Shown here piece after piece: positions 19,642 through 31,841 of a stretch of DNA of 34,388 bases; position 1 is the first letter of the stretch; every line of letters begins with the position of its first letter. The notes beneath the pieces are model-generated. The model saw nothing but the letters and a program-made list of their open reading frames with translations, ran no database searches and was not told the DNA's origin. A program made the position numbers and the translations under genes. Origin of the DNA: a virus; IMG/VR virus record IMGVR_UViG_3300029258_001641, positions 1 through 34,388 of that record; one strand, written 5' to 3'.

Positions 19642-20045
19642 CGGGCGCCCCCTCGGATGGTTTCCGCTTGGATCTTCATATATTTTTCTGAATTCTGGAT
19701 CAGGCTGGTTTCAAGATATTTCGGCCCGGATCCCTCCAGGGTCCAGTTCCATCCGTCCGGCGCTTCGTGCAGCCGGGCGGCATACGGCGTATTGAATCCG
19801 GCCGTGATGGCGACCCCTTTCCCCTCGATCCGCGGCTCCCCGATCAGCTGCGACCGCCACAGGTGGCCGTGTAAATGCGGGACCCGGGGCTCGTCCTGGA
19901 TGGCGTCGGCCAGCAGGGCCGCGGCCGCCCGCTTGGCCCCCTGCAGGCCCAGGCCGGGAATCGTATCCTTGACCAATTTCTGAAATTTTATGTCAAAATC
20001 GGACGTATCCAGAGTAAAAGGCCCGTGATCCTGTTTATTTATCAT
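19638..20045 (-). CDS. HK97 gp10-like neck protein, 135 aa
   Basis: The start at 20045 is chosen by an ATGA overlap with the upstream stop; a longer in-frame option at 20117 would overlap by 76 bases. The sequence GHLWRSQLIGEPRIEGKG, then FNTPYAARLHEAPDGWNW and GPKYLETSLIQN, follows the gp10 pattern: 'g.L..S', a strand, 'YA..lHe', a Trp-rich loop and 'p.yl...l'. These neck proteins join the head completion ring to the tail. It is preceded by the head-closure gene. Confidence 0.7.
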   Translation of the reverse strand: MINKQDHGPFTLDTSDFDIKFQKLVKDTIPGLGLQGAKRAAAALLADAIQDEPRVPHLHGHLWRSQLIGEPRIEGKGVAITAGFNTPYAARLHEAPDGWNWTLEGSGPKYLETSLIQNSEKYMKIQAETIRGGAR

Positions 20046-20350
20046 TCGACATAAACCTCTATATGGTGGCTCGCCGTTGAATCCTGGGGGCGGAGAATTT
20101 TTAAAATCGCCCGCCATCGGGTTTCCCCCTGCAGCTTGACCTGGTCGGATCCCGAAACGACCGCGGCCGGCTTAAAAAAAACTTTCGCCGTTGAGACGAC
20201 CTCTTCCCCCGCTTCGTCCCGGACCGTCTTGACTCCATACATGATCCGGCATTTAATCCCCGCCGTTTCCGTAAAAACAGCCTGGTTGTATTTATCGACC
20301 GTCCGGGCCCGGGTCGTGCAGGTGTTGATTAAAAGTCCGTCGTAGCTCAT
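20042..20350 (-). CDS. Putative head-closure / head-tail joining protein, 102 aa
   Basis: ATG 20350 overlaps the stop of the sulfotransferase by ATGA; an in-frame GTG at 20359 is another option. The protein is a small beta-rich domain with LLINTCTTRARTVDKY at the start and ETAGIKCRIMYGVKTVRDE, AKVFFKPAAVVSGSDQV and ILRPQDSTASHHIEV. This matches the size and strand order of stopper-type proteins placed between the adaptor and gp10 genes. Its direct coupling to a sulfotransferase shows that the accessory cassette is inserted between head-tail genes. Confidence 0.55.
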   Translation of the reverse strand: MSYDGLLINTCTTRARTVDKYNQAVFTETAGIKCRIMYGVKTVRDEAGEEVVSTAKVFFKPAAVVSGSDQVKLQGETRWRAILKILRPQDSTASHHIEVYVE

Positions 20351-21126
20351 ATCGGCCACCCCGTTTCAATCCCCGTTAACCGCTCGAATGCGGCGTTTTG
20401 CGGGATATAAAGATCGTCCAGGGCTTGACGGATCGGCTGGGGAATCTTCGGATATTTGACGTTGGGGCGGATCTTCCGCAGGGCGTCGACGTTATCGAAT
20501 GGCCCCAGGTCCTCCGCCGGCAGTCCCAAAAATTCCAAAACCCCCAGGATCTCCGCGCTGGGATCCTGAAAAAATCGCTCCGAAATAATAATTTTAATCT
20601 GATTCGGGTCAAAATATTTGTACCATCGGGCCAGGGCCGCAGCGTAAAACCCAAACTGAAAAATTCGCGCCTTCGGGTAGGGTCGGCCTCCCCTCGAGTC
20701 CAGGATAACGGCATCCCGGGGCGTGATCCGCCCGGCCATGTCGACCAGGTCCTCTTCCCTCATCCCGCGCAGCTCGTGGTCCCGGTAATGGCAATAATGG
20801 GACCAGGCCCGGGCCGTAGGGTCCCGCAAAACGGCCATGAATTTCCGATCGGGGAAAATACTGGCGACCCGTTTCGGGACGGCCTCTTCAATAAGATACC
20901 CCGGCGAGGCCTCGATCAAAATCCCGCCTGGGATGGGCGCCGGGAAGCATTCCCCGTACCATTTCAGGCCGTGCTTGAATTCTCGATCGAAAAAATTGAC
21001 CTCTTTGTCCCCAGCGTGGGCCCGAACAGGCCCCCGGATCCGGGAATGTCGGGTCAGATATCGAAAAAGGGAAGTCGTCCCCCCCCGCATCGTGCCGATA
21101 ATCAGGGCATTCGGATATCCGCTCAT
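20347..21126 (-). CDS. PAPS-dependent sulfotransferase, heparan-type
   Basis: The start MSGYPNALIIG at 21126 has GAGGGAAAG upstream; an in-frame ATG far upstream at 21330 would lie within the methyltransferase gene. The 259-residue protein shows the 5'-phosphosulfate loop ALIIGTMRGGTTSLFRYL (about residues 7-24), KEVNFFDREF (about 43-52), and the 3'-phosphate motif AVLRDPTARAWSHY (about 96-109). This order matches Sulfotransfer_1 enzymes such as heparan N- and O-sulfotransferases, which move sulfate from PAPS to a sugar hydroxyl or amine. The acceptor is not known. Neighbouring glycosyltransferases suggest a glycan. Confidence 0.8.
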   Translation of the reverse strand: MSGYPNALIIGTMRGGTTSLFRYLTRHSRIRGPVRAHAGDKEVNFFDREFKHGLKWYGECFPAPIPGGILIEASPGYLIEEAVPKRVASIFPDRKFMAVLRDPTARAWSHYCHYRDHELRGMREEDLVDMAGRITPRDAVILDSRGGRPYPKARIFQFGFYAAALARWYKYFDPNQIKIIISERFFQDPSAEILGVLEFLGLPAEDLGPFDNVDALRKIRPNVKYPKIPQPIRQALDDLYIPQNAAFERLTGIETGWPI

Positions 21127-21175
21127 CGCCTTTCCCTCGATTTCCCCGATGGTAGAAACCAGCTTCCCCCGGCCA

Positions 21176-21784
21176 TCATTTCCGCCTCCTGCGAATAAAA
21201 ACCGGCCGATCGGACGGCGTCCGGATGAAAATCTCCAGGCGCCGGCGGTAAACGGTCGGCATCGTGGGGGCGTGCTGTTCTGGGGCGTAATCGGCCTGCA
21301 GCCCGCAGCCGTTGACGTGGGTGATCCCACAGATCCCCGCCATTCTGGTTTCCAGATCCGGGGGTTGGTCCCAATATTCCATAATCAGGGCGCCCCCCTC
21401 TCCGATGGCCGGGAGTATTCTTGGGATAATCCGCTGCCATTCCTTCCATTGACATGCCACCCCGGCCCATAAAATCAAATCAAAAAGCCCATGCTCGCCA
21501 GCCAGGGCGGCGCCGTCCAGGGATCGGATGTCCCCGACGACATATCTGATCGACTCCGTTTCCTGCCGGCCTCGAATTATTGGGGCGTATGAATCAATCC
21601 CCAGGTAAAAGTCCGGATCGACCTCCGGGAAAAGGTCGGGGAATGGAAACGGCCCGCAGCCCAGATCTAAAATCCGCGGTCGCCATCTGGAATATTGGCG
21701 GACCGCCCAATATACCAGGCCCCATTTTAGTTTAAACTCGGGGTCGGCCATGTATTCCAGGCGCTTGGCTCGATCGCTATTCAT
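21176..21784 (-). CDS. Class I SAM-dependent methyltransferase, 202 aa
   Basis: Motif I is clear, PRILDLGCGPFPFPDLFP (about residues 35-52), and is followed by an acidic motif II loop (YLGIDSYAPII) and RYVVGDIRSLDG before the motif IV stretch FDLILWAGVACQW. These are the SAM-binding elements of the Rossmann-like class I fold. It overlaps the PLP enzyme by eight bases and precedes the sulfotransferase. The methyl acceptor is unknown; a sugar or small metabolite is plausible given the context. The C-terminus is short and basic (RRRRK). Confidence 0.75.
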   Translation of the reverse strand: MNSDRAKRLEYMADPEFKLKWGLVYWAVRQYSRWRPRILDLGCGPFPFPDLFPEVDPDFYLGIDSYAPIIRGRQETESIRYVVGDIRSLDGAALAGEHGLFDLILWAGVACQWKEWQRIIPRILPAIGEGGALIMEYWDQPPDLETRMAGICGITHVNGCGLQADYAPEQHAPTMPTVYRRRLEIFIRTPSDRPVFIRRRRK

Positions 21785-22628
21785 TTTTAAAAACTCCCCC
21801 GGTATGCCAAAACAGGACCTTGGCGCCGGCTGGGATCTTCCCCTCCCGGGCGTCTGAAATCAGGGCCGCCATGGCCCGGCCGGTATAAACCGGATCCAGC
21901 AGGACCCCCTCTAAATTCAGGACGTCCCGGACCGTTATCCCGTAAGTGCCCTTGATTTCCCGCTGGTCAATGTTACGGGCCAGGACCCGGCATCCGATCA
22001 TCCCCTCGACCGCCTCATATATCTGATTGATATAGGCTTTATCTTCCGCGGTCCCCAATGCGCCGCTTGGCGCTCCGGGCCCTCTGACTGCGATAATCTT
22101 CGAGTCGATCGCCCGGGCCCACAGGCCGATTGAAAGCCCGATCCAGCTGGCGTCATACGAATACAGGTAAATGAGATCGACGTCCGGCATGTCCTCGAGG
22201 ATTTCCCCGGCCGCCTCGAAATATCCCAGGGCCGCATATTCTTTCAGCTGATCATATCGGATCTTGATTTCCCTGGCCGGGCCATCGCTCAGGCTTCGAA
22301 TCATTCGGATGGCGGCGCCGTTCCCCCCGGCTGCCGGCGATGTCAGGTCCAGGTGAACGTCGAACCCGGCCCGCTTGAATGCCGCCGCATATATCCGGAC
22401 CGTGTTTGAATCTCCCCTCCCCTTTATAATCAGGCGCTCGACTTTTTTCGCCCGGGCCCAGGCAATCAAATATTTTGCGTGCCTGGTTTTATTCCCCAGG
22501 AAATCAGTCAAATCGTCCCGCTTTATATATAGATTTTCAATCCCAAGCTGACCGGCAAGCCGGGGCATCGGCTGAATTGGCGTCCTGACATGAAAGTCAG
22601 GCGCAAGCTCGCTTAATTTCTCGTACAT
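21777..22628 (-). CDS. PLP-dependent enzyme, ACC deaminase / D-cysteine desulfhydrase family
   Basis: This 283-residue protein has LYIKRDDLTDFLGNKTRHAKYL (about residues 34-54), where Lys in GNKTR is the expected Schiff-base lysine of this fold-type II family. GRGDSNTVRIYAAA (about 69-82) corresponds to the 'GG.QSNH.r..aaaA' substrate loop, with His replaced by Thr. LLDPVYTGRAMAAL and VLFWHTGGVF near the end match the family's C-terminus. Family members cleave ACC or D-cysteine, or act on related amino acids. The altered loop suggests another substrate. A GCCGTATACGGC palindrome lies 22 bases upstream. Confidence 0.7.
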   Translation of the reverse strand: MYEKLSELAPDFHVRTPIQPMPRLAGQLGIENLYIKRDDLTDFLGNKTRHAKYLIAWARAKKVERLIIKGRGDSNTVRIYAAAFKRAGFDVHLDLTSPAAGGNGAAIRMIRSLSDGPAREIKIRYDQLKEYAALGYFEAAGEILEDMPDVDLIYLYSYDASWIGLSIGLWARAIDSKIIAVRGPGAPSGALGTAEDKAYINQIYEAVEGMIGCRVLARNIDQREIKGTYGITVRDVLNLEGVLLDPVYTGRAMAALISDAREGKIPAGAKVLFWHTGGVFKNE

Positions 22629-22650
22629 TCAGGCCTCTGGCTTTACGTGG

Positions 22651-22664
22651 CGCCGTATACGGCG
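22651..22664. repeat. 14-bp palindrome, copy 2 of 3
   Basis: CGCCGTATACGGCG lies in the 39-base gap between the methyltransferase stop and the PLP enzyme start. This is one of the few gaps in an otherwise overlapping cassette. Confidence 0.85.
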
Positions 22665-22667
22665 ACT

Positions 22668-23378
22668 TTATCCCTTTTTCCTTGTCCTGGTCTGGGTCTT
22701 CTTTTTCGCGGCCGATTTTGCGGGGCTGCGCCGCGTGGGCTTGGGCGTGGCCGGCTTTGGCTTGTCTTCGGCCGGGGCTGGTTTTGGCTCCGGCTTGGCC
22801 GGCTCTTCCGGCTTTTCCTTTTTCGGTGCCGGGCCCGGAATCGACCCGGTAAAAACTATCAGCCGGCGCCGGCGCTGGGCCAGGCGGTCCTGATAAAGGA
22901 TCCGCTCTTCCTTGATCCCAAACCGGCCGCGGAAGTCCCGCCGGAATCCCGCCTCCGGGAAATAAAACTGGCCCCTCATATGTTCCAGGGCTTCCATGGT
23001 CCAGACGACGACCGCAATCCTGGCCCCCGGCCGCATGACCCGCTGATATTCCGCCAGGGCCGGCCGCCAGTCCCGGACATGGTCGATTGTGGAAAAATCC
23101 AGGACCAGGTCGAAAGCCCCGTTTTCGAATGGTAGACGGCGGATGTCCGCCAGCTGGGCGTCCAGTCCGGCCCGCTTTGCCGCCTTGACATAATCCGCCC
23201 GGATTTCGACCAGGCGGACGTTCCCGGGAATGTTGCCGGCGATCCCCCCGGCCATCGGGCGCCCGGTCGCCTCATTGAAGCAATCGGTTTTTAAAATGTC
23301 CGCATCTTCCCGGGCCATGTCCCGGGCGATCTGCAGATATTCGTCTAAAATCCCAGGGTAGGCTTTCGCTAAATTCAT
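22668..23378 (-). CDS. Class I SAM methyltransferase with Lys/Pro-rich tail
   Basis: The N-terminal 175 residues resemble a class I methyltransferase. VRLVEIRADYVKAAKR (about residues 54-69) fits motif I-II, and DIRRLPFENGAFDLVLDFS (about 78-96) is the usual 'LPf....FD.V' motif IV. HVRDWRPALAEYQRVMRPG follows as in Ubie/Methyltransf_11 enzymes. The last 60 residues are built of Lys, Pro, Ala and Glu (KKEKPEEPAKPEPKPAP, KKKTQTRTRKKG), like a histone H1 tail. This may bind nucleic acid or an acidic polymer. ATGA overlaps couple it to the upstream glycosyltransferase. Confidence 0.7.
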   Translation of the reverse strand: MNLAKAYPGILDEYLQIARDMAREDADILKTDCFNEATGRPMAGGIAGNIPGNVRLVEIRADYVKAAKRAGLDAQLADIRRLPFENGAFDLVLDFSTIDHVRDWRPALAEYQRVMRPGARIAVVVWTMEALEHMRGQFYFPEAGFRRDFRGRFGIKEERILYQDRLAQRRRRLIVFTGSIPGPAPKKEKPEEPAKPEPKPAPAEDKPKPATPKPTRRSPAKSAAKKKTQTRTRKKG

Positions 23379-24214
23379 CGTTTCCTCCCGTCAAGCGTCC
23401 GCTCGATCCAATCCCAAACCCGCGCCGGCATGCAACTTTCCTGGAACAGCCGGGCCGCGTTGGCTCCGACTTCCCGCAAATCCCGCCGGCGGTCTTCGAA
23501 TCTTTCTATTGTTCCGACCAGGTCGGAAAAATCTGGGCTGCAGGTCAAATAATGAACCCCCGGCTCTGGTTCCTTCCAATCCGGCAGGACGATATCAAGC
23601 GGGGTCGACAGCGTCGCGCAGCCGAAAGCCATTTGCTGCAGCTGGCCGCGGTCCAGGATCGTTTCCCTGGCGCCGGGGATGCAAACAGACAAAAAGCAAT
23701 TGTTTATTTTTCGCCAAAAAGCCTCTTGTCCGGTCATGCTGAAATCAGCCTTCGCCCCGAATGCTTCCCTTAGAATAAACTGCGCCCGCCGGCGCCGCTT
23801 AACGGCCGCATGCCGGGGCCGCTGATTATTCAGAATCCAGGGGGCATTCGCCCGATAGTTGATTTTTTTCCGCATCCGGGAAAACTGGCCCCAATTGTGG
23901 AATGATATCGGGGTCAACGGGAAAACATTTTCCCGTGGCCCATGGCGCCGTTTAGAATAGTGGTATCGGAAAACGGTCCCGAAATTGTCGATATCCTCGG
24001 CCTCCGTGGGGTGATCCCCAAAATCGACCAGGACATCCTGGCCGTAATATTTAAAAATAAATCCGCGGCGGCCGGTGCCTTTTTGAGAATCAGCCCGGGG
24101 GGGTAGCGTGAATCTGACATTTACGCCGGCGGCCCGTGCCAAATTTATAAAAAATAGATAATGGGTCGGGTAATATCTTTGACCTTCGTCCCGCTCAAAA
24201 TCGATCGATTTCAT
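23375..24214 (-). CDS. Putative GT-B glycosyltransferase, 279 aa
   Basis: The C-terminal half has the flavour of a GT-B family enzyme. CIPGARETILDRGQLQQMAFG (about residues 183-202) is followed by TPLDIVLPDWKEPEPG, HYLTCSPDFSDLVGTI and ANAARLFQESCMPARVWDW. These features recall glycosyltransferase families that end with 'E..a.G...i...' and a conserved Trp-rich helix. The N-terminal half has DVLVDFGDHPTEAEDI. Both ends couple by ATGA to other cassette genes. Donor and acceptor are unknown, and assignment is weaker than for the two neighbouring transferases. Confidence 0.55.
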   Translation of the reverse strand: MKSIDFERDEGQRYYPTHYLFFINLARAAGVNVRFTLPPRADSQKGTGRRGFIFKYYGQDVLVDFGDHPTEAEDIDNFGTVFRYHYSKRRHGPRENVFPLTPISFHNWGQFSRMRKKINYRANAPWILNNQRPRHAAVKRRRRAQFILREAFGAKADFSMTGQEAFWRKINNCFLSVCIPGARETILDRGQLQQMAFGCATLSTPLDIVLPDWKEPEPGVHYLTCSPDFSDLVGTIERFEDRRRDLREVGANAARLFQESCMPARVWDWIERTLDGRKR

Positions 24215-24894
24215 TCCGCCTCCGGGTGGATCCGATTAAAATCAGATCCCCATAAAAACCCCTTGCCCGCTCTGGCCGATTGCGTGTGCAGATCCCTCGC
24301 TTTGACCTGCTGCGCCAGCTGGTGGGTTCTGTCTTTTTTCCTGGCGTGCCTGACCTTGGCGATGGGGCAAGGGATCCAGGCCCCCGCCCGCCTGGCGAAT
24401 CGGCCCAGCTCAAAATCCGCCCCAAAATGGATATAATCCGGGCACATGACCGCTTTTCCTGGGAATCGATCGATAAACCCCCGCCCCATCAAACCGAATG
24501 CGCTTGAACAGCCGCCGACGTCCTGGGCGATCTGGACTACCCCGCCCAGCCCTTCCGGGCCGGCCTCGAGCCTGGCCGCGGCGATCGCCAAACATTCCGG
24601 ATCAAACTGGATGTCGTCGGCGCCGTACAAGAAAGCGTCCGCGTGGAATGTTTCCGCCAGGGCCCGGTTGATCGACCTGGGCCAGTCGATCCTCTTTTCG
24701 TTAAAAATAACGGTATACCTGGCGCCGTATGGCTCTATTTTTTCGATTTCGGTTTTCAGGGCCGGGTTCCCGTCGACGATGATGGTTATCCCCAGCCGGT
24801 CCGCTGGGAAGCGGGACCTCCGGATCGATGCCAGGGTCTTTTTTATCGCGTCCGGCCTGGCGCAGGTCGGGATCCCGATATCAATATCGATCAT
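24211..24894 (-). CDS. Family 2-type glycosyltransferase, 227 aa
   Basis: The opening IDIDIGIPTCARPDAIKKTL (about residues 2-21) is a GT-A family 2 start, where the fold places a nucleotide-binding strand followed by a helix. TIIVDGNP follows, then RSINRALAE and ADAFLYGADDIQFDPE (about 89-104), whose GADDIQ resembles the DxD-type metal site. GCSSAFGLMGRGFIDRF is a typical acceptor-region segment. It probably transfers a sugar from a nucleotide donor in the cytoplasm. Neighbours overlap by four bases at both ends. Confidence 0.7.
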   Translation of the reverse strand: MIDIDIGIPTCARPDAIKKTLASIRRSRFPADRLGITIIVDGNPALKTEIEKIEPYGARYTVIFNEKRIDWPRSINRALAETFHADAFLYGADDIQFDPECLAIAAARLEAGPEGLGGVVQIAQDVGGCSSAFGLMGRGFIDRFPGKAVMCPDYIHFGADFELGRFARRAGAWIPCPIAKVRHARKKDRTHQLAQQVKARDLHTQSARAGKGFLWGSDFNRIHPEAE

Positions 24895-25769
24895 AATTCC
24901 CCCGCCGCTTCATAGGCCCGAATGTATTCCTGGATTTTCTCGATCGGGTGCCATTTTTTTAAAATCCATTCCCGGCCGCGCCGCTGAAAATCTTCCAGGG
25001 TGACTTGATCGTCAATAAGAGAAATCAGGCGATCCTCTAAAGTCCGGGGCGTTGTGAAGCAAAACGGGATTTTATTGACCCGGGCCAGGACCGCGGCTCC
25101 AATGCAAAACCCCTCAAGGCTGGTCCGGTGCCAGTTCCCGGTGACAATGTCGTCAATCAGGATGTGGCATCGTTGCTTTCTCCGCAGGTTGTCGAAATAC
25201 GGCACGCCTTCGATCAGGTCAACGTCGACATCCCGGGCCCCCTTTATTCGATCCAGAATTTTTACGACCTCATGATATGCCTTCGAATCCGGCCGCCCGA
25301 TATGGGTCCGGCTGGTTGGGGCGAATCCGATCCTGATTTTCGGTTCTCTTCGAATCGGCCGCAGCTCGTCCGGGTCAATTATGTTTGGGAGTCCGGGGAT
25401 TTTGTATTCCGCGATCTGTCCCGGCTGGTCGATCGTGTAATGAATATCCGCAGCCGACCATAGGGCCTCCCAATTTCCCAGCCGCGGGAGGCTGTGGAAT
25501 TGAGCAAGAATTTTCTGTCCCCTGGTCCGTCCGGGAAAGGTCCCTGGTAGGTAATTGTGAAAATGGATTATGTCCGCCTGGCGAAAAAGCCGGCTGGCGT
25601 TCCCGTTCAAGTCATGCAGCATGAGATGATGGGGAAAAATCCGCCCGTCCCGGTATCGGTCCCTTTCGTTGACCAGGTCAACTTTAATGTCTGTATATTT
25701 CCGCAGGGCCCGCCAAATCGACCAGGGCGCCGCGGCCAGGGGGGTCCGGGAATACATTAAAACCCGCAT
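24891..25769 (-). CDS. Family 4/GT-B-like glycosyltransferase, 292 aa
   Basis: The N-terminus MRVLMYSRTPLAAAPWSIW and ADIIHFHNYLPG (about residues 68-79) follow the 'H.h' acceptor-domain pattern of GT4-type enzymes. The second half has IRIGFAPTSR, VDVDLIEGVPYFDNLRRK and CHILIDDIVTGNWHRTSLEG. This resembles the donor-domain segment in which a short acidic strand precedes 'G....s.lEa'. Together these fit a retaining or inverting GT-B fold. The ATG shares a base with the cupin stop (TGATG), as expected for a single transcript. Confidence 0.65.
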   Translation of the reverse strand: MRVLMYSRTPLAAAPWSIWRALRKYTDIKVDLVNERDRYRDGRIFPHHLMLHDLNGNASRLFRQADIIHFHNYLPGTFPGRTRGQKILAQFHSLPRLGNWEALWSAADIHYTIDQPGQIAEYKIPGLPNIIDPDELRPIRREPKIRIGFAPTSRTHIGRPDSKAYHEVVKILDRIKGARDVDVDLIEGVPYFDNLRRKQRCHILIDDIVTGNWHRTSLEGFCIGAAVLARVNKIPFCFTTPRTLEDRLISLIDDQVTLEDFQRRGREWILKKWHPIEKIQEYIRAYEAAGEL

Positions 25770-26146
25770 CAGCCCGAAATCCTTCCCAGGATCCCGCCGG
25801 TAGAACGCCGCTCGATGTCTGGGTCCTGCAGGGCGACCGTGTAAAATTCGATCGCTTCGGTGTTCTCCAGGGCCTCGAATTTATGCCAGGCGCCGGCTGG
25901 GACCGCCGTCAACTCGCCGGCTGCGATCTCTGTTTGGTCCGGGATTTCCTGGGGTCCATGGGGCCCGTCCACCTCCCGCCATATCGTGATCAGCAGGCGC
26001 CCGGAAATTACATAAAAAATATTGGATTTGAATTCATGCCGGTGTTCCGAACAAAACCCGCCGGCCTGTGCGCTGATATGGTGGGCCGAAACCGTCCGCG
26101 TCCGCAGGATTTCCTGCGTCAAACCCCAGATTTTACCTTGTTTCAA
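25769..26146 (-). CDS. Cupin protein, mannose-6-phosphate-isomerase-like
   Basis: This 125-residue single cupin domain has motif 1 SEHRHEFKSNIFYVISGRL (about residues 33-51, with the His-x-His metal ligands and Glu) and motif 2 AAGELTAVPAGAWHKFEA (about 77-94). Such small cupins isomerise or epimerise sugar phosphates or bind sugar nucleotides in surface-glycan pathways. Translation seems to start at TTG 26146, overlapping the previous stop as TTGA. Its position among glycosyltransferases suggests precursor synthesis; the exact reaction is unknown. Confidence 0.75.
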   Translation of the reverse strand: MKQGKIWGLTQEILRTRTVSAHHISAQAGGFCSEHRHEFKSNIFYVISGRLLITIWREVDGPHGPQEIPDQTEIAAGELTAVPAGAWHKFEALENTEAIEFYTVALQDPDIERRSTGGILGRISG

Positions 26147-26922
26147 TTAAGGACCTCCTCGGGTGATCTCTTCGGGAAAGCCTCGAGTCCGGAATCTGGA
26201 TTCAGATTTATAACCGTAGTCTTTTTTTGCCGGCATGCCTGGGCCGCCGGCTCGAAAAATTTGGCGAATTTTACGGCCGTTTCTTCTTTTTGTTTCCTGG
26301 GGTGGCCGTCGTGAAAATGGGATCGGCCGTCTGAATGCTTGCAATCAAACCCCAGCAGATAAATCGGATTGGCGCCCAGGCAAACCGCCAGATTCAGGGC
26401 CCCATATCCGGAATTATTCCCATGGCCGATCCCCGCCCGGCTTGTCATGGGAAAGGCCCGCAGGCCGTCCTTATAATTCCGAAAAACCCGGACTATGAAA
26501 ATTTCCGCCGGCAGTTTAACGGTATACGTGCAGAGCCAGACCTTGTATGAGGTTGACTGGTGGAATTTTTCCCGGGCGCCGGCCCCGTCTGGGATCCGTT
26601 CATATCGGCCTTGATATATGAAGTTTAAAAACCGGGTGTCCATTGAAAAAATAATCGTTGGGTCAAAAAATTCGAAGGCGCGATTTATTCCGATCGTCCG
26701 AAATCCTTTCAGCCGGGAAAAATCGAACCCCCGCAGGCTGGGACCGCCCCCTACTATGACGCAAGGCCGCCCCTCCCAGGCCCCGTCTGGCAGGACCTCG
26801 TATAAAAATCTATTGTCGAAACGATCGGATCGATAAAGAATTGGATCTCTCCGTGATAGCAAATCGTTTTCTGGCGCCGGCCGCTTCGGATCCGCGCCGG
26901 GAAGGCTGGTTTTTCTGTCCAT
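26143..26922 (-). CDS. DUF115 / GT42-like phage morphogenesis-module protein
   Basis: The core begins at CVIVGGGPSLRGFDFSRLKG (about residues 54-73), followed by GINRAFEFFDPTIIFSMDTR. GNNSGYGALNLAVCLGANPI and YLLGFDCKHSDG come at about 188-220. Phage proteins of this type are sometimes named Norphogenetic protein. The pattern of a nucleotide-binding 'GGGPSL' plus 'SG....A...G...iyL.G.D' is shared with DUF115/Maf enzymes and family 42 sialyltransferases. It may transfer or form a charged sugar. Its start overlaps the head-tail adaptor stop, so it opens the inserted cassette. Confidence 0.65.
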   Translation of the reverse strand: MDRKTSLPGADPKRPAPENDLLSRRDPILYRSDRFDNRFLYEVLPDGAWEGRPCVIVGGGPSLRGFDFSRLKGFRTIGINRAFEFFDPTIIFSMDTRFLNFIYQGRYERIPDGAGAREKFHQSTSYKVWLCTYTVKLPAEIFIVRVFRNYKDGLRAFPMTSRAGIGHGNNSGYGALNLAVCLGANPIYLLGFDCKHSDGRSHFHDGHPRKQKEETAVKFAKFFEPAAQACRQKKTTVINLNPDSGLEAFPKRSPEEVLN

Positions 26923-27572
26923 TACACCGCCCCCATGATCGGCTTTTTCTGCTTGATGTAATGGCGGAGAATCGCATCGACTCGATCGATCCCCGTATAA
27001 ACCCCGCCGGCCGCGTATCCGGTCAACCCTTTTGTATATGAATAATCCCCAATTTTCTCGGATTTGAAGGCGCCGACGGCGCTGGTTTCCAGTTCGCCGG
27101 CGTTATAAGCGTCAATTAAAAACTCGATACATTTTTTGATGGGTTCTGGAACAGACGAATATCCAGAATATCCGACGATGCGGATATTATTCAGCCCCCG
27201 GGGAAAAAGCCCCCTCTCGTCTTCCTGGGAAATCCTGTAGTAAATCTCGGGATCCCCGACGACGACCCCGGATCCGCACAGATCCAGAAAAACGGAATCA
27301 TCGTCGAATCCGTACCAGCTGGGGTCAAGTTCGATCCCGCATAGGTGGACAGCAGTCACGTCGACCAGCCGGGCCGGGATCCTGACGGTCAATCGGTTCC
27401 GCCCGCTCCCGTTTTGTTTGAAATCCAGGGCCTTTTTGTAAAACCAGGTCCCGGTGATTTTCTCGACCAGCTGTTCGCAGAAATCGATTATTTCCTGCTT
27501 GCCGGCCTCGTCCAGGCCGCTGGGCCAAGAATCAACGTCGGCCTCTGATATATAGTTTCCGCTTGCCGCCAT
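26922..27572 (-). CDS. Head-tail connector (adaptor) protein, gp6-like
   Basis: This 216-residue protein has the pattern of an adaptor. ADVDSWPSGLDEAGKQEIID is the first helix region. It is followed by FCEQLVEKITGTWFYKKAL, LTVRIPARLVDVTAVHL with beta strands, GYSGYSSVPEPIKKCIEFL, and a C-terminal RVDAILRHYIKQKKP helix. Such proteins form the ring under the portal. The GGGAGGG Shine-Dalgarno lies just before ATG, and a strong terminator precedes it, so its expression depends on read-through or a promoter not seen here. Confidence 0.7.
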   Translation of the reverse strand: MAASGNYISEADVDSWPSGLDEAGKQEIIDFCEQLVEKITGTWFYKKALDFKQNGSGRNRLTVRIPARLVDVTAVHLCGIELDPSWYGFDDDSVFLDLCGSGVVVGDPEIYYRISQEDERGLFPRGLNNIRIVGYSGYSSVPEPIKKCIEFLIDAYNAGELETSAVGAFKSEKIGDYSYTKGLTGYAAGGVYTGIDRVDAILRHYIKQKKPIMGAV

Positions 27573-27654: not shown

Positions 27655-28443
27655 TTATTCGATGACCCGTTTCTGGGCGCCCTTGACGTAATCGATATAC
27701 ATGACCTTGGCCACCGCCTCTCCGTTCCGGATCCCGAATCCGATGGCCATTTCCTCGTCCTGGCAGATATTGGTTGTAACCTTGCCGGTCGCCAGGACCG
27801 TCTGGGGGGCGTCGCCGTCCTGAATGACAAACCAGCGGACCGTGTCTTCGCCGTCCCAATGAAAGCCCAGGCGGGTCCAGGTCAGATCCGCCAGGTCCTG
27901 GCCGGTGTCGACTTCGGTTTCGACGGAATCCGCGCAGGTCACGAAATCGATATTTCGGTCGCCGTCGTCCTTTCGGAAAACGACATAATCATCGACCCCT
28001 ACAAACCAGCCGCCGGTCCCTGTGGCCAGGCCGAACCAGACGTCCGACTGCAGGCCATCGGAAACCTTAAACCGGATTTCGAAATACGCCGGATATCCGT
28101 TGACCAGCTTCCAACATTCGCAGTCCTGCTGCAGCTCGTCGGAATCGTTGTCGGCGGCCGCATTGGTCAGAGTCAGGACGCCGCCGGCCAGGTTGGCGCA
28201 GGCCTCGGCGGCGCTTCCCTGGCCCTCTTCGGTCGTGGTAATCGACCAGCAGCCGGAAACCTCACCGCAGCAGAAATCATCGACGAATCGATGGGCGTCG
28301 ATGACGTCATGCATCTTGATCACGTTCCATTTGTCATGGTTGATGTGATAATTCAGGAAGTACAGGTCCCGGATGTAAAGCTCGGCCTGATTGGACCCGA
28401 CCCCGGAATGGGGAAAATTTTCGTCCGAAAATACTTTGCTCAT
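27655..28443 (-). CDS. Putative capsid decoration or surface protein, LamG/ConA-like
   Basis: This 262-residue protein is beta-rich and acidic. The middle has GYPAYFEIRFKVSDGLQSDV (about residues 116-135), followed by GGWFVGVDDYVVFRKDDGD, then TWTRLGFHWDGEDTVRWFVI. The end reads AIGFGIRNGEAVAKVMYIDY. This is the strand order of concanavalin/LamG-type jelly rolls that bind carbohydrates. Its place after the capsid and HeH-like genes suits a decoration protein. It is also rich in Cys (SGCWSI, CCGEVSGC, CECW), which may form structural bonds. A carbohydrate-binding role is inferred from fold style. Confidence 0.55.
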   Translation of the reverse strand: MSKVFSDENFPHSGVGSNQAELYIRDLYFLNYHINHDKWNVIKMHDVIDAHRFVDDFCCGEVSGCWSITTTEEGQGSAAEACANLAGGVLTLTNAAADNDSDELQQDCECWKLVNGYPAYFEIRFKVSDGLQSDVWFGLATGTGGWFVGVDDYVVFRKDDGDRNIDFVTCADSVETEVDTGQDLADLTWTRLGFHWDGEDTVRWFVIQDGDAPQTVLATGKVTTNICQDEEMAIGFGIRNGEAVAKVMYIDYVKGAQKRVIE

Positions 28444-28749: not shown

Positions 28750-29871
28750 TTAACAGGCGTGTTCCAGGCAACGGAGGAAAACCACCGCGTTTATATTCTC
28801 GATGGCCAGGTCGGCCCTCATGGAATAATAAACATAAGTGGCCTCGTCCGCCGCGACCCGCTGGCTTTCGATTTTGATGTCCCGCTGCAGACCGATGATC
28901 AGGTTCCCCCTCGGGGTCAGCAGGACGTCAGTATAATCGCCTTCCCCCAGCAGCCCGTCCTCGGTGTCCAGGGGCGATCCCAGGTTGGTCGGCATCAGGG
29001 GCACGTCCAGAATCCCGACCCGTCCATATTGGGGGGTGACTTTGCCGGTAAACACCGCATCGCCCAGGGCGGTCCCTCTCTCGGAAAGCGCCTCGAGATA
29101 GTCCTGTGTCACCAGGTCGGAATTCAAAAACTTCATGTTGGCCAGGCCGTTCCGGACCTTGTACTTGCTGGGCATGGCCTTGATCATTTTGTGGTACTTG
29201 CACTCCCAGCCGTAGGGGGCGCTGGTATGCTGTTCCATAATCTTTCCGGGAAGTTCGAACCAGGCGTCCGGGTCGTCGACCCCGCTGGGGCAATCCGTCC
29301 CGCTTTCGCATTCGCAGGCGTTGAGGACCTTGGATCCGCCGGAAACGTCGTTGTAATAGGCCTGGCCGCTGGTCTGGCCATAAACGATCTGATATCGCCA
29401 TCCGTCCCACAGGCTCCGGATGTCGTCCGCGCCGAAGCCATTCAGGGAGTGGGTGTCCCCGATGTAAAATGCCTCTTCCAGCTCATTGGCGATCTTGCCG
29501 GCGACGATCCGCATCAGGTGATCGGCGAAAGCGTTCCCTTCCAGGTTGTCTTCCAGGTCGTCATCGTAGACAGCGATGCATCCGCGGACCTTTTTGGTCG
29601 ATAAAGTAATGGTGTTGTGGGCCCATTGTTTCTTGTACTTCGTCTCGTCGAAAGCGGTCGCCGGATACAGAAAGCGTCCGTTTCCGAATCCCAGCGCCCG
29701 GATCCGCTTTTCGGGTTTCCCCATGCGGATGATCCGGGCGTAGTCCTTCATGACGGACTCATCGACCATGTAATCCAGGAAGCGGTCGGCCTCTTCCGGA
29801 TCCAGGTCTATCGTCGGCATCGAGATCAAGTTGAATTTGTTCATCTTGACCCGTTTTAAAAGATTTCGCAT
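28750..29871 (-). CDS. Major capsid protein, HK97-fold
   Basis: This 373-residue protein sits after the scaffold and before small head genes. LDPEEADRFLDYMVDES (about residues 22-38) and FLYPATAFDETKYKKQW (about 68-84) fit an N-terminal arm and E-loop region. Then VRGCIAVYDDDLEDNLEGN, HLMRIVAGKIANELEEAFYI and DVLLTPRGNLIIGLQRDIKI follow. Phage capsid proteins commonly show this 'i.dd.led' and C-terminal 'P.nli.g...di..e' order. Scaffold and protease genes upstream agree. An ATG at 29844 is an alternative start, but the longer form has a GGA Shine-Dalgarno. Confidence 0.8.
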   Translation of the reverse strand: MRNLLKRVKMNKFNLISMPTIDLDPEEADRFLDYMVDESVMKDYARIIRMGKPEKRIRALGFGNGRFLYPATAFDETKYKKQWAHNTITLSTKKVRGCIAVYDDDLEDNLEGNAFADHLMRIVAGKIANELEEAFYIGDTHSLNGFGADDIRSLWDGWRYQIVYGQTSGQAYYNDVSGGSKVLNACECESGTDCPSGVDDPDAWFELPGKIMEQHTSAPYGWECKYHKMIKAMPSKYKVRNGLANMKFLNSDLVTQDYLEALSERGTALGDAVFTGKVTPQYGRVGILDVPLMPTNLGSPLDTEDGLLGEGDYTDVLLTPRGNLIIGLQRDIKIESQRVAADEATYVYYSMRADLAIENINAVVFLRCLEHAC

Positions 29872-30841: not shown

Positions 30842-31204
30842 CTACATGCCAGGTTTTGGTAATTCGAATATTGGGGATGTGATTAATTCGTGTTCCTGGT
30901 GTTTTATCGATCGGATCCAATCGAAAAGCCGGCCCCAATCGGGGCCCGTAAGAAAGGAAATCAGGTCATATAGGCCGGCGGCTTGGATTTCCCGGCATCG
31001 ATCTTTCCCGTCTGTGAATGCGACCGCCTTCCCGGACGCCATTCGAAAAACGATAATATTCCCGTTTTCAATTCCCAGGATCTCGACCAGGTAAAGGTTA
31101 ATCCGGATCCCATCGATCCAAACAATCCCGGGGTCTTTCGCTGGCTTCGCGGGGGTAGACTGCAGGTTCCCCGCCGGCGCCGCGTCGTTATTTTTTTTGT
31201 CCAT
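30842..31204 (-). CDS. Protein of unknown function, 120 aa
   Basis: The start lies within the end of the sulfotransferase gene (17-base overlap). The N-terminal 28 residues are low-complexity (Ala/Pro/Lys). A compact beta/alpha part follows: IVWIDGIRINLYLVEILGI, NIIVFRMASGKAVAFTDG, AAGLYDLISFLTG and DWGRLFDWIRSI. The fold suggests a small folded domain with no signal peptide. It may be an accessory head gene, or a partner of the sulfotransferase since both are inserted between protease and scaffold. No family recognised. Confidence 0.5.
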   Translation of the reverse strand: MDKKNNDAAPAGNLQSTPAKPAKDPGIVWIDGIRINLYLVEILGIENGNIIVFRMASGKAVAFTDGKDRCREIQAAGLYDLISFLTGPDWGRLFDWIRSIKHQEHELITSPIFELPKPGM

Positions 31205-31841
31205 CGCTTTCCTTTCGCCCGGCGGTCTGGGCCTCCCCTGGTAAAAACTTCGGCCGCTCGATCATCCGGGCCAGGCTTGTCGGGACCGCGGCCTTTAAAA
31301 ACTCGAAAACCGGCCGCAGGGCCTCGTCGACATCGGCCAGGATGTTTTCATACTTGACCTCGATGGCGTCGGCTGGGTGTTCCTTGATGTGCTGCCGGAA
31401 TCGGGCGACCGTAAATTCCGCCGCCGGCTGATAGGCCGTCCAGGGAACGAACCCGCGGACGATGTCCCGGTCGGCGGCTTCATATGAACGCCAGGTTTCC
31501 CGGATCCCCCTGGTGACAAAAACTATTTTCGACCCCTTAAACGTCAGGGGTAGCCAGATCCATTCAAGCCCGCCGGCGCCGGGATTTATCGCCAGCTTGG
31601 CCCCGATCCATTTCCCAGGCCTTTTTTGTGCCGTGTAGTCCTGGAGGATTTTCTGGACATATCCCTGGGCCTTGAATCGGTCAAGGTGATTCATGCCGAT
31701 GGCGTGAAATAACGGGTGCGGCTCAAATAGAACAGGGCCGATGTTCGGCGATGCGGCCAGCAGCCGCCGCAGGATCGACGTCCCAGATCTTCTCAATCCT
31801 ATAATCCAAAAAAAACCCTCTCCGTCAAATTGTGATTGCAT
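31188..31841 (-). CDS. Second sulfotransferase-like protein, 217 aa
   Basis: The opening FFWIIGLRRSGTSILRRLL (about residues 10-28) is a clear 5'-phosphosulfate binding loop of the form 'RsGTS'. KIVFVTRGIRETWRSYEAA at about 107-125 provides the second, 3'-phosphate motif (R-x7-S pattern). The remainder, including AIEVKYENILADVDEALRP, matches the helix seen near the C-terminal part of sulfotransferases, where 'v.YE.l..d....l..i..Fl' is common. It is quite different from the enzyme at 20347. GGGAAG precedes ATG. The gene lies alone among head genes, after a GCCGTATACGGC palindrome, suggesting independent acquisition. Confidence 0.75.
   Translation of the reverse strand: MQSQFDGEGFFWIIGLRRSGTSILRRLLAASPNIGPVLFEPHPLFHAIGMNHLDRFKAQGYVQKILQDYTAQKRPGKWIGAKLAINPGAGGLEWIWLPLTFKGSKIVFVTRGIRETWRSYEAADRDIVRGFVPWTAYQPAAEFTVARFRQHIKEHPADAIEVKYENILADVDEALRPVFEFLKAAVPTSLARMIERPKFLPGEAQTAGRKESDGQKK

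Follow-up and report, generated by a model that had tools for sequence, protein, structure and literature searches.

The window analyzed here is a whole IMG/VR virus record (IMGVR_UViG_3300029258_001641, 34,388 bases), and on its minus strand nine genes for glycan chemistry stand between the head–tail adaptor and the head–tail connector genes of a phage. Our analyses suggest, with a probability that we put at about 0.72, that this island is a late-expressed virion-glycosylation locus, the products of which would build sulfated and methylated glycans in the cytoplasm and vary between relatives in the manner of a serotype locus. Glycosylation of virion proteins before or during assembly is favored because of the location among neck genes, the small number of hydrophobic proteins, and the Maf-like lead enzyme, and because the records tested yielded neither an integrase nor a serine recombinase nor, in the case of island carriers, a gene of the thymidylate synthase family. 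The initial annotation had proposed late production of a glycan either for the virion or for the host surface; the clade-wide presence of the island at its junction, the Maf-like lead enzyme, the few hydrophobic segments and the failure to find an integrase strengthen the former proposal, and the latter is weakened. The observation itself is confirmed, and it extends further than first described. Its genes and the other features discussed below are as follows.

26922..27572, minus strand: head–tail adaptor, left border of the island (phrog_442, 1.6e-11)
26143..26922, minus strand: DUF115/Maf-like glycosyltransferase (GT), the proposed initiating protein glycosyltransferase (phrog_4603, 7e-29; PF01973 below cutoff)
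25769..26146, minus strand: cupin (PF07883, 1.2e-8, above cutoff)
24891..25769, minus strand: GT4-like glycosyltransferase, probably of GT-B type (PF13439 only, 0.015, below cutoff)
24211..24894, minus strand: GT2 glycosyltransferase (PF00535, 4.8e-8, above cutoff)
23375..24214, minus strand: GTx, GT90/protein O-glucosyltransferase-like (via the profile of its relatives and one relative's weak PF05686 match)
22668..23378, minus strand: MT11, S-adenosylmethionine (SAM) methyltransferase (PF08241, 1.5e-11, above cutoff)
21777..22628, minus strand: PALP, pyridoxal phosphate (PLP)-dependent enzyme, 1-aminocyclopropane-1-carboxylate deaminase/D-cysteine desulfhydrase-like (PF00291, 1.9e-19, above cutoff)
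21176..21784, minus strand: MT23, SAM methyltransferase, a weak match (PF13489, 0.00032, below cutoff)
20347..21126, minus strand: ST1, 3′-phosphoadenosine 5′-phosphosulfate (PAPS)-dependent carbohydrate-type sulfotransferase (PF13469, 5e-13, above cutoff)
20042..20350, minus strand: head–tail connector/closure protein, right border of the island (phrog_3881, 6.2e-10)
31188..31841, minus strand: ST2, second sulfotransferase, between the PF14550 protease gene and the major capsid gene (PF13469, 1.8e-10, above cutoff)
27655..28443, minus strand: concanavalin A (ConA)-like, SO2946-like jelly-roll protein, encoded between the capsid and adaptor genes (PF22237, 2.4e-4, below cutoff)
28750..29871, minus strand: major capsid protein (MCP), the basis of the clade tree (phrog_1623, 2.2e-52)

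In related phages, possession of the island follows the phylogeny of the capsid. Relatives were gathered by a capsid protein scan (20 loci), a capsid alignment scan (the best 80 of 165 confirmed) and a GT4 alignment scan (27), sets that overlap, and profiles built from the window genes were placed on 125 loci, many of which share contigs, and on the window itself. For the capsid tree we took, from 97 loci after removal of 13 duplicates of the window's phage, the 50 distinct MCPs that have 300 residues or more and whose contigs show the adaptor together with over 400 bases beyond it. A DUF115 island follows the adaptor for 37 of the 37 MCPs of one clade (support 100/99) and for none of the 13 outside it, so that the comparison of relatives for which the initial annotation had called reveals a clade-wide island at the adaptor/closure junction. 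The use of island genes as queries does not account for this pattern, because the capsid scans also recovered 35 of the 37 carrier contigs (all but the window and L045). Twelve of the 13 noncarriers have a connector-like open reading frame (ORF) that abuts the adaptor stop or overlaps with it (E 3e-8 to 1.2e-3, at a relaxed threshold and with E calculated for a database size of one), and there the adaptor–connector junction represents the empty site; L124 is the sole noncarrier that lacks such an ORF. A scan of genome contigs with the MCP returned three, all from metagenome-assembled genomes. Those from Thermoplasmatota and Aminicenantes show no DUF115 gene, and the third (L123, JABXJW010000046.1, Desulfobacterales) encodes the MCP with part of the ConA-like protein and ends before the adaptor, with no DUF115 gene found elsewhere in the same genome. 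This contig, which is possibly misbinned, offers a weak hint as to the host.

The enzyme that leads the island suggests a link to protein glycosylation. Against the DUF115/MptE-like Pfam family (PF01973), the window protein scores 27.8 bits (E 2.5e-6), short of the curated cutoff of 34.6, and a homolog in L015 exceeds that cutoff at 41.5 bits. When its AlphaFold2 (AF2) model (mean predicted local distance difference test score 81) was given a second look with VIA-align, Magnetospirillum Maf (5mu5) ranked first (Z 15.4 over 189 residues, root-mean-square deviation 3.0), 4 units ahead of the runners-up, HPPK (Z 11.1) and the sialyltransferases CstI/II (Z of about 10–11); a search of structures with the sequence profile retrieved CstII alone, weakly (E 0.07). 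The DUF115 protein is thus predicted to have the fold of the Maf central domain. Maf proteins, the closest in fold, are a family of cytoplasmic protein O-glycosyltransferases. The DUF115 protein differs from Maf in that its alignment covers only residues 253–511 of the 632-residue Maf chain and its putative acceptor is a virion protein. In 38 of 46 islands the DUF115 gene either overlaps the adaptor stop or starts no more than 30 bases from it; in the remainder a short ORF, a gap or, in L096, a cupin gene precedes it. Three loci encode giant DUF115 proteins of 881–1093 residues (L015 2030–5311, L030 13099–15744, and L106 12980–15850). By eye, the 1,093-residue chain of L015 appears to consist of two DUF115 and two GT9-like modules, of which Pfam shows the MptE-like part only, and L015 and L030 have adaptors that exceed the window's by about 150 residues.

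Sulfotransferases are a further feature of the locus. ST1 exceeds the curated cutoffs of both PF13469 (50.2 versus 27 bits) and PF00685 (43.5 versus 22 bits), and as a single sequence it matches heparan-sulfate (HS) 3-O-sulfotransferase 3A1 at E 2e-27, with a Glu of that enzyme aligned. Outside the cassette, this phage carries two further sulfotransferases in its head gene block: ST2 and, beyond the window, an ORF between the portal gene and a MuF-like gene (L011 10584–11312, PF13469 1.1e-10; record G002). Members of the sulfotransferase cluster occur in 18 of 50 islands and in 13 of the 24 that are visible through to the connector. Scanned singly, 16 of these 18 match PF13469 at E of at most 0.01, some below the curated cutoff; one member, L019:6554–7189, has no Pfam match alone. 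A PAPS-reductase-like ORF, named by eye, adjoins the terminase-like gene in a longer record of the same phage (L011 15927–16625).

The remaining enzymes are resolved to varying degrees. The GT4-like protein is 48–57% identical across seven aligned relatives. GTx alone has no match, and its GT90-like appearance comes only via its relatives: a profile of 13 sequences matches the protein O-glucosyltransferase POGLUT2 (9w47, E 0.0034), and one relative matches PF05686 at 0.0018, below cutoff. PALP matches the structures 1j0a (1.1e-19) and 4d8t (2.2e-18) and has a 54% identical homolog in L003, where that of MT23 is 38% identical. MT11 ends in a basic tail rich in Lys, Pro and Ala that is shared with a distant homolog in L012; its profile drifted and in many islands marks a 135-residue ORF, which has no Pfam match and was not counted as a methyltransferase. 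With GT4 and PALP as queries, isolate searches returned nothing beyond an uncultured megaphage and a Salmonella record of 1.8 kb, and a nucleotide search of phage records with the island gave no match.

Across relatives, the left end of the island (DUF115, cupin, GT4-like, GT2, GTx) is often conserved, and the right end is swapped. Fifty nonredundant islands, collected via the DUF115 gene (its presence in them, three partial contigs aside, is therefore by construction, and the 37 of 37 of the capsid clade serves as the unbiased measure), contain 306 ORFs in 63 clusters. Cupin genes are found in 28, GT4 in 26, GT2 in 24 and GTx in 18, several contigs being cut short. The window's right end, MT11–PALP–MT23–ST1, recurs in the same order in the distant L003 and L012 at 38–54% identity. 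A common alternative consists of a small ORF, a sulfotransferase, a methyltransferase and a GT; others comprise an epimerase, a methyltransferase, a GT and PIG-L (L031), an epimerase, a C-methyltransferase and a radical SAM protein (L014), or GTs and methyltransferases (L025). Formyltransferases and GT9 also appear, the latter fused to a methyltransferase in a 902-residue protein of L102. Among the matches listed for 56 cluster representatives (25 of 46 families), the families with most members are methyltransferases, sulfotransferases and glycosyltransferases. L085 and L106, with MCPs that are 77% identical, have one ORF cluster in common, and a single island type is retained across capsids that are 68–87% identical; the overall rank correlation between capsid identity and gene sharing is 0.25, an approximate figure, as fused proteins merge clusters. 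Median dN/dS (ratio of nonsynonymous to synonymous substitution rates) is 0.06–0.09 for DUF115, cupin, GT4, GT2 and GTx, the same as for the ConA-like protein, adaptor, connector and terminator-like genes (capsid 0.08, from one pair), and 0.11–0.22 for right-end genes, values that come from 1 to 11 usable pairs per gene, with maxima for single pairs of 0.32 (core) and 0.59 (right end). The core island genes are thus under purifying selection like the structural genes. Two loci show other kinds of insertion. An HNH endonuclease ORF lies between the cupin and GT4 genes of one island (L024 4053–4793), and domains of Zn-alcohol dehydrogenase, E1-dehydrogenase and transketolase occupy the interval between protease and capsid in L030 (4339–7428), the interval that holds ST2 in the window; it appears to be a second cargo site.

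The cassette is tightly built into the assembly operon. All nine ORFs lie on the minus strand where the initial annotation had placed them, and its account of the joints, direct overlaps at all but two and at both outer borders, is borne out joint by joint: overlaps measure 1 base (adaptor/DUF115, cupin/GT4), 4 bases (DUF115/cupin, GT4/GT2, GT2/GTx, GTx/MT11, ST1/connector) or 8 bases (PALP/MT23), and the only gaps are those of 39 bases between MT11 and PALP (22629–22667) and 49 bases between MT23 and ST1 (21127–21175). The MT23/ST1 and ST1/connector joints are measured from ATG starts at 21126 and 20350, the longest ORFs beginning further upstream. Its identification of the flanks as head–tail adaptor and head-closure genes likewise agrees with the phrog_442 and phrog_3881 matches. 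In transcriptional order, the head block runs from the PF14550 protease gene through ST2, a short gene, a gene that partly matches a maturation-protease family and the MCP gene (also matched to phage major capsid proteins by tblastn, at 28.6%) to a Rho_N-like gene, the ConA-like protein, the adaptor, the cassette and the connector; then come the tail completion gene, another gene of the neck, one for an Ig-type tail protein and that for the tape measure. G002, a longer record of the same phage, has ORFs that by eye look terminase-like and portal-like. An assembly chimera, the artifact that had been raised as a possible refutation, is very unlikely because two further metagenome records have the same island and relatives carry islands of this kind. 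In record 3300017989_000306 the island is 99.99% identical, with one 1-base gap that splits MT23 (L010 9600–10204; intact in the window and G001), and in record 3300017987_002081 it is 100% identical as far as the contig reaches (21145–34388).

Collectively, these data are consistent with the following model. The island would be transcribed alongside the head and neck genes, as the overlapping same-strand genes suggest, and the Maf-like DUF115 protein would add the first sugar to Ser/Thr residues of a virion protein in the cytoplasm, a role suggested by its fold and its usual first position. The GT4-like, GT2 and GTx proteins, members of shown or suggested GT families, may then extend the glycan, presumably in that order, and the methyltransferases, cupin, PLP enzyme and PAPS-dependent sulfotransferases, whose families are established and whose substrates are proposed, would decorate it with donors taken from the host. 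Exchange of right ends between phages would give relatives with similar capsids different surface glycans, as a serotype locus does. The likely benefit would be a shielded or differently charged particle surface, or altered receptor contact. Candidate acceptors are the ConA-like protein, the capsid or the tail. The AF2 model of the ConA-like protein has SO2946 (2a5z) as its top Foldseek match (E 5e-10), and VIA places SO2946 (Z 16.0) amid glucanases and lectins at Z 15–17; the protein accompanies 35 of the 37 island MCPs and none of the 13 others, an association that reflects few independent events given the clade structure, and is a candidate acceptor or head decoration. A bolder version of the model, which we hold only tentatively and consider on balance doubtful, sees a true virion serotype locus: a horizontally exchanged, capsule-like island with a Maf-like start that places long sulfated and methylated glycans on heads or necks, giving a proteoglycan-like particle with a surface chemistry that diversifies independently of the capsid.

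Several observations weigh against virion glycosylation. Foldseek alone gave no significant match for the DUF115 model (best E 0.022). Two of the 37 carriers (L027 and L061) lack the ConA-like protein, which is therefore not the sole acceptor everywhere. Capsid and adaptor are not enriched in Ser/Thr in carriers, where the content is lower than in noncarriers, and a scan for Ser/Thr-rich C termini as acceptors found no enrichment (mean Ser plus Thr in the C-terminal 25 residues 0.08 for the MCP and 0.13 for the Ig-type tail protein), that criterion being an assumption from reported C-terminal sites with mycobacteriophage proteins not scanned as a control. ST1, like its counterpart in L012, has an Arg where HS 3-O-sulfotransferase 3A1 has its loop Lys. 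We take the aligned Glu to be catalytic, and the loop Lys to be a functional residue, in HS 3-O-sulfotransferases; ST1 thus departs from the Glu-plus-Lys pattern of that subfamily and, because of the Arg, is placed at superfamily level only, as a predicted PAPS-dependent sulfotransferase with carbohydrate-type similarity. The hydropathy test, which found a hydrophobic 19-residue segment in 8 of the 306 island ORFs (one segment each), was run without a control on known membrane transferases. The term glyco- does not occur in a text search of the D3 capsid structure paper (PMC12749128). In phage P1, pmgO and pmgQ, two late genes considered below, were scored nonessential in one study (PMC10695390), and in another, in passages that do not name pmgO, no plaque defect could be observed for 24 of 29 P1 knockouts of single genes (PMC9024508); an accessory role in surface modification would fit these P1 data better than a core role in assembly. 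Finally, a metagenome paper reads phage glycosyl- and sulfotransferases as agents of nucleotide or protein modification (PMC10829341).

That last interpretation also suits DNA hypermodification, in which the enzymes would glycosylate and decorate genome bases against restriction. DNA-glycosylating phage GTs are known, as another paper notes with citations (PMC12619734). The DUF115 protein nevertheless models on Maf and sialyltransferases, and ST1 matches carbohydrate sulfotransferases. PLP, radical SAM and methyltransferase genes do occur in DNA-hypermodification clusters; however, the thymidylate synthase/dCMP hydroxymethylase family was found in none of the 13 island-bearing records, which may be incomplete, routes without that family being conceivable. 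It was present in one of the 19 records tested (13 island-bearing, 5 without the island and 1, L116, of undetermined status), namely L113, which has no island. We regard DNA hypermodification as quite unlikely. Late remodeling of the host surface, by which altered lipopolysaccharide, capsule or S-layer glycans would block superinfection or free progeny from receptors, is unlikely. Surface polymers are also substrates of GT, methyltransferase and sulfotransferase families, and some islands encode GT9 heptosyltransferase-type domains, but hydrophobic segments are scarce, the matches listed for the cluster representatives include no flippase, polymerase or lipid-linked initiating transferase, and the genes are fixed among head–neck genes in all 37 clade members.

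Two further explanations were considered. The junction could be a moron hot spot, an insertion-tolerant site with host-metabolism or random cargo that makes no joint product, as the turnover of right ends, the HNH endonuclease of L024 and the metabolic genes in the protease–capsid interval of L030 might suggest. We consider this distinctly improbable, since DUF115 and the core gene order are common to distant relatives with dN/dS of 0.06–0.09, and the identifiable cargo is mostly glycan chemistry. Lysogenic (serotype) conversion of the host appears the least probable of all. Pseudomonas phage D3, a known seroconverting phage, carries a related DUF115 gene; against this, neither a tyrosine integrase (0 of 19) nor a serine recombinase (0 of 19) was found in the records tested, of which 13 exceed 45 kb and which may be incomplete, and the island sits in the late block. 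Gtr/Oac-type polytopic membrane transferases are likewise not apparent, the few ORFs with a hydrophobic segment having a single one each. Moreover, the island GT4 matches 11 of 395 genomes of Desulfobacterota, a group that may not be the host's, and the best match, the one inspected, has no phage neighbors.

Virion glycosylation by phages is already known, and the single transferases for seroconversion cited as background in the initial annotation give an incomplete picture: according to citations of Freeman et al. 2023 in two papers (PMC12363180, PMC12619734), phage-encoded GTs glycosylate mycobacteriophage virions, those of Che8, Corndog and Myrna acting on the phages' own capsid and tail tube proteins. 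The island resembles these systems in its phage-encoded GTs. Unlike them, it has a DUF115/Maf-like starter, sulfotransferases, a PLP enzyme, a fixed adaptor/connector site and a swappable right end, and Ser/Thr-rich C termini, which we assume for the mycobacteriophage case from its reported C-terminal sites, are not seen here. Comparable cases among cultured phages are D3, where the capsid and adaptor genes flank a DUF115 gene and an HK97 gp10-like gene is preceded by genes for a hypothetical protein and a methyltransferase (orf7/orf12/orf13; orf12 has no Pfam match), and Escherichia phage P1, which has the DUF115 gene pmgO and the annotated GT gene pmgQ among its late “morphogenetic” genes. 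Both thus combine DUF115 with a methyltransferase (D3) or a GT (P1) in head–neck or late genes; they differ in having few genes, no annotated sulfotransferase in the stretches examined, and DUF115 proteins of about 26–29% identity. In Caulobacter phage CcrColossus, likewise cultured, gp126–gp131 (L129 5962–10515) form a DUF115-led run, with an NDP-sugar transferase, a methyltransferase and GT9, beside virion genes. This resembles the island, but CcrColossus is a jumbo phage, its run stands directly behind tail genes, and the stretch examined has no annotated sulfotransferase. In bacterial O-antigen and capsule loci, the flank or core is constant and the glycan genes are exchangeable. The island shares this arrangement; unlike those loci, it is embedded in a phage assembly operon, and the matches listed for it include neither a flippase nor a polymerase nor a lipid-carrier enzyme. 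The titles and abstract openings listed from the open-licence literature searched describe no sulfotransferase-bearing virion-glycan island, and that literature yielded no paper on DUF115, phage and head–tail together. We regard the sulfotransferase-bearing, DUF115-led architecture at the adaptor/connector junction as a new form of this known phenomenon.

It is usual to regard the surface of a phage as bare protein. If the proposed function is correct, phages would be able to evolve their surface sugars as bacteria do, which would matter for adsorption, environmental stability and antibody recognition. Furthermore, genes in the head operons or late regions of D3, P1 and Caulobacter jumbo phages that are annotated as DUF115, “sialyltransferase” or pmgO would gain a concrete, testable function.

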